Assembly: GCA_017417055.1 (NCBI GenBank)
Contig: JAFPZX010000136.1
Coordinates: forward strand, 1-64,000
Direction: 5' to 3'
From: Anaerolineaceae bacterium
Lineage (GTDB): Bacteria; Chloroflexota; Anaerolineae; Anaerolineales; Anaerolineaceae
DNA length: 64,000 nt
Part shown: in pieces, positions 51,561-55,671 of the stretch
Position numbering within the stretch: the first letter of the stretch is position 1
How the letters are laid out: each line of letters starts with the position of its first letter
Translations under genes and position numbers: made by a program
The notes under the pieces: model-generated
Database searches by the model: none
What the model saw: the letters and a program-made list of their open reading frames with translations, nothing else
Told to the model about the DNA's origin: nothing

Positions 51561-51681
51561 GCTGCCCAAAAACAAACCGCTGAACACGACGACGATCAAT
51601 GATCTTTGCTTTATCCCGGACTGCCGGCTGGAGGACATCATGGCCTATACCGCCTGCGCGTATGACCAGATCATTCACTAA
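51561..51681 (+). pseudogene. C-terminal fragment of an XRE-type HTH gene (copy of 54099-54320)
   Basis: In the frame ending with TAA at 51679, the codons read NKPLNTTTINDLCFIPDCRL then EDIMAYTACAYDQIIH. This is the last ~38 residues of the HTH protein at 54099 with only a few changes. The N-terminal half and any start are missing. The similarity continues past the stop into TTGATTTTCGTAAATCG and the TTCACGGAGCA repeat, so a segment of about 200 bases was duplicated. Confidence 0.75.
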
Positions 51682-51863
51682 TTGATTTTCGTAAATCGAA
51701 GCGTAACGATGTTACTATTCACGGAGCAAACGAGGTCTGCCCTGATGTTGCCGCGAAGTCGGCACAGCAGGACTGCACTATGTGATGCGGCACAGCAATT
51801 TTGGCGAACGGGTGAACAGTAACCAACGGATTATTCCGTGAAATAATAAACCAAATTTATATA

Positions 51864-51892
51864 TTGAAAAACGATAAATTTAAATGTATAAT
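51864..51892 (+). promoter_or_regulatory. Promoter of the predicted small RNA
   Basis: TTGAAA (51864-51869), 17 bases, TATAAT (51887-51892). The best-spaced -35/-10 pair in the window without a following gene. Confidence 0.7.
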
Positions 51893-51898
51893 ATAGAT

Positions 51899-52018
51899 TG
51901 ATCGTAAATCCTGGTGACTTTGGCCTTTCGGAGAAGGACCTAGCTGTAGTTGAAATACTACGGGAGAGAATGAAATCGGAGCTCAGGGGGATCATTCAGA
52001 AGGAGTCTTGGACTCCTT
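51899..52018 (+). ncRNA. Predicted structured small RNA (~120 nt), family not recognised
   Basis: Starts just after a good promoter and ends at a rho-independent terminator (AAGGAGT-CTTGG-ACTCCTT then T). Internal pairings can be drawn by eye: ATCCTG near the 5' end with CAGGGGGAT near the 3' end; GGCCTT with AAGGACC around TCGGAG; GTAGT with ACTAC; AGCT with AGCT. No ribosome site with a credible frame was found. It does not match tmRNA, SRP RNA, 6S or the riboswitch consensuses I know. Its 3' end overlaps, in antisense, the last codons of the DUF3800 gene. Confidence 0.6.
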
Positions 52019-52657
52019 TTTTATTTTTTCCCAGGTAGTATCGTGATAGATTGTTTCTTTTTTTATTCGTCCATCAACTATTGTAAATAATTCCGATCCA
52101 AACCTGTGTTTTTGATATGTTTCGTAAACGATAAAATCAGCAGCTCGAAGTTCGGCATATTCAATCGAATCACTATGAAATATAGGAATCTCATCTTCAT
52201 TTTTATAATTGCAATAAATCAGTTCGCGGATATTTTCATTCAATCGAGCTCGAAGCACTTCTTTGGTATATCTTTTGTCCAAAATAAAAATAGTATTTCG
52301 ATGCTGCGAATAAATTTGACAGCACAACATACTCATACCAACCCTGTATATTTCATCCCAACTATATGGTGAATTTGATATTGTTTTTAAATCGAATACA
52401 ATTGAATATATTGAAAATTCGGTCCTGATTAATTGTGTAAGAACTTTTTTCCTGGTTATGGGCTGTTGGTAGGCAGCTTTTAATTCACCGGAGCTCTTTT
52501 TGTTTATGCTTCTAATTTTCTTTTCTGCCGATCTCATCGCTCTTGCCAGAGATACTCTGTCATCAGTCACGATTGCAGAAATAACGAGCATATTGTCATT
52601 ACTTTTTGTATCAAGATTTCCGGACTCATCTATGAAAGCGTAATAATCACCAAACAT
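51992..52657 (-). CDS. DUF3800-domain protein
   Basis: 221 residues. The N-terminal DYYAFIDESGNLD, the middle TIFILDKRYTKEVLRARLNE, and IEYAELRAADFIVYETYQKH are the DUF3800 blocks, with an RNase H-like Asp-Glu...Asp...Asp pattern. These proteins are common beside mobile elements and defence genes; nuclease activity is suspected but not shown. No ribosome site is obvious before ATG 52657. The 3' end coincides with the terminator of the opposing small RNA. Confidence 0.82.
   Translation of the reverse strand: MFGDYYAFIDESGNLDTKSNDNMLVISAIVTDDRVSLARAMRSAEKKIRSINKKSSGELKAAYQQPITRKKVLTQLIRTEFSIYSIVFDLKTISNSPYSWDEIYRVGMSMLCCQIYSQHRNTIFILDKRYTKEVLRARLNENIRELIYCNYKNEDEIPIFHSDSIEYAELRAADFIVYETYQKHRFGSELFTIVDGRIKKETIYHDTTWEKIKKESKTPSE
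51998..52018 (+). terminator. Terminator of the predicted small RNA
   Basis: AAGGAGT/ACTCCTT stem with loop CTTGG, followed by six T. On the minus strand the same bases encode the C-terminus of the DUF3800 protein. Confidence 0.8.
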
Positions 52658-52726: not shown

Positions 52727-53035
52727 TTATGCCCCTTCAAGGACCAGAGCAGCATTTTCCTGATTGACTAAGGTCAGTTTTTCACGATAGCTTTTTTCCC
52801 AATTGGTGAACAATGATGAAGGTCCACCGAATTTTTTTCCAAGGTTATCCGCCATATTCCGGTCAAGGGTCAAATCACCCTCCATCAGATTCCAGAATTC
52901 CTCATTATTCAGGTCTAAAGCCTTTTGTACAACAATTCCCGGGATCGAATTGTTGAGCATGATGTCCTTTATAAATTTCTCCGGTTGGGATCGTGATATG
53001 ATTTTCACTCCGTCTGACAGCCATAATCCCCTCAA
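52727..53035 (-). CDS. HigA/XRE-like antitoxin-type protein
   Basis: 102 residues from TTG 53035, or 93 from GTG 53008; neither has an ideal ribosome site, so the start is uncertain. The segment PEKFIKDIMLNNSIPGIVVQ, KALDLNNEEFWNLMEGDLTL, DRNMADNLGKKFGGPSSLFT, NWEKSYREKL follows the HigA pattern (PGExLxExF..LgIsq..lA..lgvs...ingk..it.d.AlrLakffgts..fW.nLQ..Yd). No HigB-type toxin is next to it. It may be an orphan regulator. Confidence 0.6.
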   Translation of the reverse strand: MRGLWLSDGVKIISRSQPEKFIKDIMLNNSIPGIVVQKALDLNNEEFWNLMEGDLTLDRNMADNLGKKFGGPSSLFTNWEKSYREKLTLVNQENAALVLEGA

Positions 53036-53856: not shown

Positions 53857-54098
53857 GATAAAACTCCTTTATTAACTTTTTTATCACTGCTGTTTGTAAG
53901 CAACTGTCAGATAATTTGTAAATGCGTTGAATGCATTTCTTATCAATAACGTATCGTTACATAACAAACAGTGATTAACTTACTATCTTATTACATGGTC
54001 TTTATGCAGATTATAGTCTGTATATAAACTATAGTCAAGAAAATAACTATCTTTTAAAATACATTTCATTAAGATTGTTGTTTGAAAGGGGTAGAAAT

Positions 54099-54320
54099 TT
54101 GATCGTTTATACACCATTTTGGGAGACTTTAAAGCGGTCGAATGAATCCACCTATACGCTGATAAAGGTACATCACATTTCAAGTTCCATTATCGATCGA
54201 TTACGCAACAATAAACCAATTACTACGACCACGATCAATGATCTTTGTTTTATCCTGGACTGCCGGGTGGAGGACATCATGGCCTATACCGTCTGCGCGG
54301 ATGATCAGATTATTCACTGA
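54099..54320 (+). CDS. Small XRE-family HTH regulator (Cro/C1-like)
   Basis: 73 residues from TTG 54099, preceded by AAAGGGG at 7 bases. The pattern YTPFWETLKRSNESTYTLIK, HISSSIIDRLRNNKPITTTT, INDLCFILDCRVEDIMAYT is the HTH_26-type short Cro/C1 repressor common in mobile and gut-bacterial DNA. It is complete. A C-terminal fragment of a close copy lies at 51561-51681. Target unknown. Confidence 0.8.
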   Translation: MIVYTPFWETLKRSNESTYTLIKVHHISSSIIDRLRNNKPITTTTINDLCFILDCRVEDIMAYTVCADDQIIH

Positions 54321-54696
54321 ATTGATTTTTGTAAATCGCAGGTTACGGTTCACGGAGCACAATCTGGTCTGCCTTTTTGCTGCCGCGCAGCCGGCACAAA
54401 AAGACTGCACAGCTGTGCGTGACATCTCTTTCAGAGTTACCTGCACCGCATATTAAATTTACGTAATCCAGCGGAATATCTTTCGTTTTCGACAAGACTC
54501 TGGTTGGCTATAACGCGAATGTGACACATGGGTACAGTCCTGATATGTCGGCTTTTATACAATATCAGTACCAAATCTGTGTATTTTGTGAACATCAAAT
54601 TTTTTTGCTCATTTGAGTAAACCTGAGTAAATGCTTCTTGAAATTGCAGACATTTCATGGTATTCTTTAAGTAGAAAAAAGACGGAGACAGAAGCT
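54321..54696. other. Spacer with GTCTGCCTTTTTG repeat
   Basis: TTCACGGAGCAC (54350-54361), then GGTCTGCCTTTTTGCTGCCG and CGGCACAAAAAGACTGCAC, an inverted-repeat element with close relatives at 59178-59221 and, diverged, at 51725-51780. The remainder up to 54680 is AT-rich and I see no gene or clear promoter. Confidence 0.6.
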
Positions 54697-55671
54697 GTGG
54701 AAGAGAAAAAAGTTGTTCGATTAAGCCCACTGAATAATCTGGTGTTTTCCTGCATCTTTCAAAGCGAGGAAAAATCAGGCCGTGCTATGCTGGAATTTCT
54801 GAACGCGATATTGGTTCATGTTGGAGAAGAACCAATCGAAGAAATCATCAGCATGATGAGTGAATATCCGCTGATATCAGAAAGTGTCGGGCAGAAATAC
54901 GGACGGCTGGATGTGCGGGTACGCGCAAAATCAGGGCGTATATTTGATATCGAGGTACAGATAGAAAAAGATTATGTCAACGAACGCTCCTTCTTTTATG
55001 GCGGAAAGTTGGTGACGAATGAATTCGAATCCGGACTGACTTATGATAAAATGCCGCCGGTACGTGTGATCAACATTGTGGATTTTTATATCCGGGAAGA
55101 TCATCAAAATGTGGTTGAACCGGTAATCATGGTCTATGAAAATGCGCGGGAAGAACAGGCTACAGATGTATTCAAAATGTACCATATTCAAATGCCGGCT
55201 TTTCGAAAGAATCACAAAACACTGGATTCGGTTAAGGGTGATCTATTTATGACCTGGCTTTACATGCTGGATCAGGGATACAAGAACAGTGAAGAAATGG
55301 AGGAACTGGCAGCCATGACAGAAGGAATGCTGAACTTTGCAAAACAATACAATATCGCCATCAATGATCCGCTGCTGGTGAGACGCTATCAGATGGACCA
55401 GGACGCCAAACGGGAAGAAGCTTTCAAAATGTCGCTTGCAGAAACGAAAGGCGAAAAAAGAGGATTCAAACGAGGTGAGGAAAAAGGCTTTAAACGAGGC
55501 AAAGAAGACGGTTTCAGACTTGGTAAGGAAGACGGTTTCAGACTTGGCAAAGAAGACGGACAAAGAACGAATCAACTTGAAAATGCCCGGCGGATGAAAG
55601 CTGACGGAATGAATCCTGAGCTGATAGCCAAATATACCGGTCTCCCGGAATCTGAAATATTCAAGCTTTAA
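54697..55671 (+). CDS. Rpn-family (PD-(D/E)XK) recombination-promoting nuclease / transposase-like protein
   Basis: 324 residues from GTG 54697 with GGAG 9 bases upstream. VRLSPLNNLVFSCIFQSEEK and the core YGRLDVRVRAKSGRIFDIEV contain the D...ExQ nuclease signature (Asp in RLDV, Glu-Val-Gln at the end). The C-terminal part has near-identical repeats of GFKRGKEDG and GFRLGKEDG, then LPESEIF, a layout typical of the family. Such proteins are mobile or associated with recombination and are often present in many copies. A TIR element begins at its stop codon. Confidence 0.88.
   Translation: MEEKKVVRLSPLNNLVFSCIFQSEEKSGRAMLEFLNAILVHVGEEPIEEIISMMSEYPLISESVGQKYGRLDVRVRAKSGRIFDIEVQIEKDYVNERSFFYGGKLVTNEFESGLTYDKMPPVRVINIVDFYIREDHQNVVEPVIMVYENAREEQATDVFKMYHIQMPAFRKNHKTLDSVKGDLFMTWLYMLDQGYKNSEEMEELAAMTEGMLNFAKQYNIAINDPLLVRRYQMDQDAKREEAFKMSLAETKGEKRGFKRGEEKGFKRGKEDGFRLGKEDGFRLGKEDGQRTNQLENARRMKADGMNPELIAKYTGLPESEIFKL

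Follow-up and report, generated by a model that had tools for sequence, protein, structure and literature searches.

A DUF3800-III RNA and a convergent, predicted RNase HII-like protein gene in Anaerolineaceae: a possible RNA antitoxin and its toxin

A new copy of a known structured RNA

The window analyzed here, 64,000 nucleotides of contig JAFPZX010000136.1 from an Anaerolineaceae bacterium (assembly GCA_017417055.1), carries a small structured RNA that converges with a gene of the DUF3800 family. The RNA is a new copy of an already known family, DUF3800-III (Rfam RF02962; cmscan score of 79.7 bits against a gathering cut-off of 43.8, E 1e-17), and we propose, at a probability of about 0.45, that it is the antitoxin of an RNase HII-like toxin encoded by the adjoining gene, the pair working like a type III toxin-antitoxin system without being a canonical member of that class. 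An earlier note, made from the letters of this stretch, had put the RNA forward as the best candidate in the window for an undescribed element, having matched it to no known family; this label was wrong, and the Rfam covariance search that the note itself had recommended returned the very kind of match that it had listed as speaking against novelty. The observation itself was confirmed. The covariance match, the covariation and the recurrence of the promoter motif across loci all support a conserved, structured RNA that has promoter- and terminator-like signals of its own; the TTGAAA-17-TATAAT motif and the downstream hairpin with a T-run (51998-52020) are both present, and the complementary segments singled out in the note are helices of the RF02962 model (Table 1).

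The DUF3800-III RNA was reportedly described by Weinberg et al. in 2017, and to our knowledge the RNA families named after DUF3800 in Rfam have no known function. No published function for the DUF3800-III RNA was found in the literature searched on DUF3800 and DUF3800-III and, as far as that literature shows, the functional reading put forward here is new; it is testable and unproven. The layout of the unit, the one-sided loss of its protein gene, a chromosomal slot in common with toxin-antitoxin genes and the predicted RNase HII-like fold together turn a motif into a testable functional claim. If right, this claim would add a toxin of RNase H fold under the control of an RNA, a kind of toxin that we did not meet in the literature searched.

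RF02962 was present in 11 of 61 related genomes (the genome of the window counted) and in 36 of 396 genomes of the class, and the two lists yielded 67 distinct RNA loci, which were taken with their flanks; three of these (G207:C353, G242:C98 and G142:C10) scored under the Rfam cut-off. The model used for searching was built from 12 ungapped copies with the Rfam structure and gave 66 matches in the 65 sources searched; a first model (R1; MAFFT and RNAalifold) was poor, with 16 pairs, and was not used for this purpose. In an alignment of 66 sequences, window copy included, fitted to the model, 29 of the 31 pairs changed on both sides, and none of 500 shuffles reached any of the five covariation measures, so that the comparison with relatives proposed in the earlier note came out in favor of the stems. 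Furthermore, 92% of the alignment cells paired, and sliding the partners by one column lowered the score from 0.48 to 0.12.

The window copy considered by itself is less telling. Its minimum free energy was weak (z -1.68), and within 2 kb we counted 8 promoter-like sites versus 5.0 expected from shuffles and 1 terminator-like site versus 1.8, so that neither scan is significant alone. Because the promoter scan, the terminator scan and the folding energy are each weak when taken singly, the case for the RNA, which is made from sequence, rests on comparison among relatives. Among the 67 loci, a promoter-like motif with at least 9 of 12 consensus letters was found at the RNA start in 60 (mean 10.3 versus 7.5 in shuffles). 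In many relatives the closing helix P1 leads directly into the T-run, and the RNA is thus promoter, fold and terminator in one. The window copy matches DUF3800-III over its full length, has the common fold and adjoins a DUF3800 gene; it differs, together with several relatives, in having a separate terminator hairpin where many relatives use P1 and the T-run.

The RNA lies convergent with DUF3800 genes

For the DUF3800 protein, the predicted fold is an RNase H fold of type 2, that of RNase HII, and the best fold matches listed were RNase HII-like, with ToxN and other toxin folds not among the matches listed. Four acidic residues (D10, E11, D127 and D174) were invariant in 22 DUF3800 proteins and may correspond to the four-acid DEDD active site of RNase HII. 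A sequence search of PDB returned no relative, RNase HII included (best E 0.13), and PADLOC gave weak matches for the window protein and for 4 of 6 relatives (best E 4.8e-7 among the relatives). DUF3800 differs from RNase HII and H2 in being an accessory gene of patchy distribution tied to an RNA.

A survey of both strands at the RNA loci placed the DUF3800 matches on the opposite strand, on the 3' side of the RNA, the exceptions being one weak extra match (R32, E 2e-3) and the neighboring unit of a tandem locus (L063). The 28 best matches to protein profile A1 in the 396 genomes all adjoin RF02962, a result that is partly circular because the profile was built from RNA-linked proteins. The next 21 matches, which lack RF02962, were also examined; 2 were cut by contig ends, leaving 19. 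Seven of these are accompanied by DUF3800-IX and one by DUF3800-V, all convergent at the 3' end of the gene, and at eight more the best match of our RNA model falls on the corresponding strand in the convergent 3' position. One of these eight matches reaches E 1.5e-4; each of the others is weak by itself, with E values from 0.03 to 2. At locus L116, two adjacent RNA candidates compete. A motif scan of GTDB r220 that started from DUF3800 found the RNA at 31 of 36 loci, and at 31 of 31 in Chloroflexota; 10 of the 31 were new to our set, and all 10 scored above the Rfam cut-off.

Each of the four DUF3800 genes found in the genome of the window is accompanied by an RNA of a DUF3800 type, which is III for two of them and XI for the other two. 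The type XI RNAs (L111, 3176-3222; L112, 4831-4877) lie about 50 bases upstream of DUF3800 on the same strand, which is the layout of type III toxin-antitoxin systems.

With the DUF3800 gene on the minus strand and ending at 51992, the window RNA and gene converge, and the hairpin encodes the last codons of the protein (IKKESKTPSE, read in reverse); the separate hairpin doubles as the reversed C-terminus in C102 as well. The earlier statement that the terminator is also the end of the opposing gene is thus correct for the coordinates in the window, and the mutual influence of the two transcripts that it drew from this is unproven, the coding overlap being confined to some loci. A type I (antisense) toxin-antitoxin system would have an RNA antisense to the toxin mRNA in every member; here some loci have the coding end of DUF3800 within the RNA, while at others it falls as much as 87 bases past it, and the coding overlap is therefore not conserved.

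The protein gene is lost while the RNA is kept

DUF3800 is intact at 27 of the 67 RNA loci, as judged by rule for 24 of them and by eye for 3, and a further 3 loci lie at contig edges. DUF3800 is not intact in 37 of the 64 assessable loci: none was found in 18, and the rest are frameshifted, partial or internally deleted, and in some short genes the N-terminal region with FxDESG is joined directly to the C-terminus (R23 and R57, for example). RNAs beside non-intact and intact genes pair equally well (0.92 versus 0.93, p 0.49), and their scores do not differ either (p 0.66). Conversely, DUF3800 without the RNA was not seen among the 28 proteins closest to profile A1. Across the loci examined, loss thus struck the protein gene much more often than the RNA. 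Retention of the RNA with loss of the protein is a pattern that an antitoxin allows.

The brxC slot provides an example. In Longilinea arvoryzae (L175, isolate KOME-1; DUF3800 gene at 2001-2615) the gene order is brxC, DUF3800, RNA. G025 has brxC directly followed by the RNA, DUF3800 being absent from between them, and G021 has an RNA that lacks DUF3800 at another point of the brxC gene row, before the methylase. The RNA thus occurs near the brxC row at L175, L050 and L049, at different junctions, and DUF3800 in Longilinea only. PADLOC assigned the ATPase (G025 copy) to BrxC and the Longilinea methylase to PglX. We infer that the difference at the brxC slot reflects loss of DUF3800 rather than its gain.

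The same neighborhood lends itself to another explanation, namely that the RNA is a required cofactor of a ribonucleoprotein nuclease acting in anti-phage defense, the RNA-only loci being dead or trans-acting remnants. In Longilinea the unit adjoins a BREX operon, next to brxC and pglX-like genes; two reports (PMC12669027, PMC10910872) place DUF3800 with some CRISPR loci of types V-A2 and VI-F; RNA and protein co-diverge, and the predicted RNase HII-like fold with its conserved acidic residues would suit such a nuclease. Against this, the RNA persists alone and still pairs normally at loci that lack the protein, and it also occurs in genomes without a match to the DUF3800 profile (G086, G089, G113 and G179, all of them drafts or incomplete). 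We regard a cofactor role as unlikely, though a serious contender.

Chromosomal slots and flanking repeats

Direct repeats of host DNA, 35-165 bp long, flank the unit in 13 of the 67 loci, compared with 1 of 201 mismatched pairs. The left copy ends 49-71 bases before the RNA, next to its promoter, and the two copies are 80-96% alike, none being identical. The window copy lacks such a repeat; the one that flanks it stops 116 bases short of the RNA. At five loci (R14, R15, R16, R20 and R26) the target is one and the same, a gene for a DegT-type aminotransferase (Pfam, R16 copy) at its 5' end. The longer gene copy is found beyond the RNA, and a leftover 5' piece beyond DUF3800. The repeat copies of R14, R16 and R20 carry 9, 8 and 26 differences at codon positions 1, 2 and 3, respectively; since this is the pattern of working genes, the copies look like two working genes, and recombination appears to fit better than simple transposition.

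Other genomes hold different inserts in the DegT slot: TumA and TumE with their own 33-base leftover piece (LYLSPPHM) in G218, a UPF0150/HicB-like gene in G257, a weakly HicB-like gene in G306 and about 400 unidentified bases in G137. Four other genomic copies of the DegT gene (G277, G109, G267 and G348:C600) had no RNA match. The slot thus holds different small modules in related genomes, TumA/TumE, HicB-like genes or DUF3800 with its RNA (L155, 586-1493; L156, 1675-1929; L157, 1961-2257), some of them with leftover 5' pieces of the host gene, and it may make visible a general way in which toxin-antitoxin genes are acquired. A second target is an ETF-family gene (PF01012), which carries the unit in G334 and twice in G367; in 7 of the 41 genomes searched in the genus of G367 its two neighbors lie 86-137 bases apart, and in G473 they lie 640 bases apart.

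Such repeats could be produced if DUF3800 and the RNA formed a small homing or transposing element, the staggered breaks made by the nuclease giving rise to long flanking duplications. Beyond the excess of repeats and the position of their left edge, 49-71 bases before the RNA, the RNA-only units R12 and R58 are flanked as well, and the etf sites exist in both occupied and unoccupied states. The divergence of the repeats and the codon-position pattern of the three DegT cases speak against an element of this kind, as do the short duplication belonging to the TumA/TumE insert and the dissimilarity of RNA copies within a genome (at most 0.79 alike, except for a pair at duplicated etf sites at 0.97; two tandem pairs, 93% repeats, were left out of this comparison). 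We thus consider it improbable. A related and similarly doubtful possibility is a self-spreading module, in which the RNA-bound nuclease would open the 5' ends of operon genes, the module would be copied in by recombination leaving long host duplications, and the RNA would keep the nuclease harmless between moves. If true, this would unite mobility, addiction and defense in one RNA-protein pair and explain the convergent layout common to the DUF3800-linked RNA families III, V and IX.

The position of the unit also bears on whether the RNA is a local regulator of the DUF3800 mRNA, or of the host gene that begins about 60-70 bases behind its promoter, through transcription or antisense pairing. 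The convergent arrangement would permit this and, by eye, a host start codon adjoins the RNA promoter at the DegT target, the ETF target and one glycosyltransferase-like target. Yet the coding end overlaps the RNA in some loci only, the host genes vary among loci, and both the structure and the unpaired letters show the kind of conservation seen in trans-acting RNAs, so we give local regulation little credence.

Two further vehicles were rejected. As for an integron cassette, core-site letters were scanned at R16, R20, R26, R34, R35 and R18, and by eye no paired sites were found at the unit ends; as for carriage by phages or plasmids, the RNA of L059 matched none of the 72,556 plasmid and 50,697 phage records searched, and the protein profile, used in one scan of viral sequences, recovered no relative.

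A possible RNA antitoxin and its points of doubt

Under the antitoxin reading, the promoter would keep the RNA abundant, and the RNA would fold, bind the RNase HII-like DUF3800 protein directly and hold it inactive; should RNA synthesis stop, for example during phage infection, the nuclease would be freed. The steps that follow the folding of the RNA are ones that we infer, and the toxicity of the free protein is the least secure part of the reading. A precedent for such a mechanism is AbiF/RCd22 (Abi_2 with the abiF RNA, RF03085; type III-like), in which the RNA was shown to bind and neutralize its protein (PMC12373285). In both systems one protein gene adjoins a structured RNA that has promoter and terminator signals of its own; in AbiF/RCd22 the protein belongs to another family and the RNA lies upstream with two repeated motifs, whereas the DUF3800-III RNA is downstream, convergent and unrepeated. 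With type III systems of the ToxIN kind it would have in common the proposed logic, a nuclease held by a small RNA; it differs in the predicted RNase HII-like fold and in the absence of tandem RNA repeats and of a co-transcription layout. The RNA is not upstream and co-transcribed through an attenuating terminator, but downstream and convergent, and it forms one single-copy fold in which no tandem repeats were seen, no repeat finder having been run.

A guide RNA of the OMEGA or TnpB type was ruled out, as the RNA has no variable end and both its ends are set by conserved promoter- and terminator-like signals.

Several observations weigh against an antitoxin. The departure from type III systems in repeats and arrangement is one. 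Another is that 3 of the 19 lower-scoring DUF3800 loci (L114, L123 and L124) have no RNA by the model, and that the 5 loci outside Chloroflexota (four archaeal, one Berkelbacteria) have none by either search. The promoter score is slightly lower at loci without intact DUF3800 (10.0 versus 10.6, p 0.048), sampling that starts from the RNA is blind to loci that keep DUF3800 and have lost the RNA beyond recognition, and losing the gene while keeping the RNA would equally suit a relic in which the RNA had taken on another job. The main doubt comes from a transposon screen (PMC7811196) in which a strain-specific DUF3800 gene, with or without an RNA partner, was essential. Essentiality is expected of an antitoxin or antidote rather than of a toxin, and the result, while supporting some form of addiction, suggests that DUF3800 is the protective partner in that strain. 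The screen and the predicted RNase H fold would both suit reversed roles, with a harmful RNA that is destroyed, alone or in its hybrids, by DUF3800. Such an RNA would hardly be expected to stand without an intact DUF3800 gene in 37 of the 64 assessable loci, with a near-normal promoter and a normal fold, and we hold this reversal to be highly improbable.

By eye, L123 (1270-1490) and L124 (1300-1450), whose DUF3800 genes have no Rfam match, each show a promoter-like motif, a long closing helix and a T-run in the convergent 3' position, which makes them candidates for undescribed DUF3800-linked RNAs.

Surroundings of the unit in the window

Table 1. Parts of the DUF3800-III unit, in window positions
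Feature	Position	Strand	Basis
Promoter-like motif TTGAAA-17-TATAAT, sigma-70-type	51864..51892	+	motif scan; 11/12 consensus letters
DUF3800-III RNA (RF02962), structured core, 104 bases	51895..51998	+	cmscan
Helix P2, 5' strand CCTGG, partner 51983-51987	51910..51914	+	cmscan alignment; covariation
Hairpin P3 (GGCCTT/AAGGACC of the earlier note)	51924..51937	+	cmscan alignment; helix 4, 5/5 pairs covary
Hairpin P4 (GTAGT/ACTAC of the earlier note)	51944..51963	+	cmscan alignment; helices 5-7, 7/7 pairs covary
Helix P2, 3' strand TCAGG	51983..51987	+	cmscan alignment
Gene for the 221-aa DUF3800 protein (predicted nuclease, RNase HII-like); converges with the RNA	51992..52657	-	PF12686, E 7.8e-10
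Intrinsic-terminator-like 10-pair hairpin and T-run of the RNA; opposite strand, last DUF3800 codons	51998..52028	+	terminator scan

A direct repeat of about 210 bases, its copies 80% identical (51568-51779 and 54207-54411), encloses a 2.4-kb island that contains the DUF3800-III RNA, the DUF3800 gene and a DUF6273 gene. Of the HTH_26 frame, which is complete (54075-54320) where it overlaps the right copy, the left copy holds a part only. Upstream of DUF3800, on the same strand, lies a 102-aa frame (52727-53035, minus strand) with no match above cut-off in Pfam, NCBIfam or PADLOC. Near the RNA and DUF3800 unit, a PD-(D/E)XK nuclease family transposase gene (PF12784) occupies positions 54631-55671 of the plus strand.
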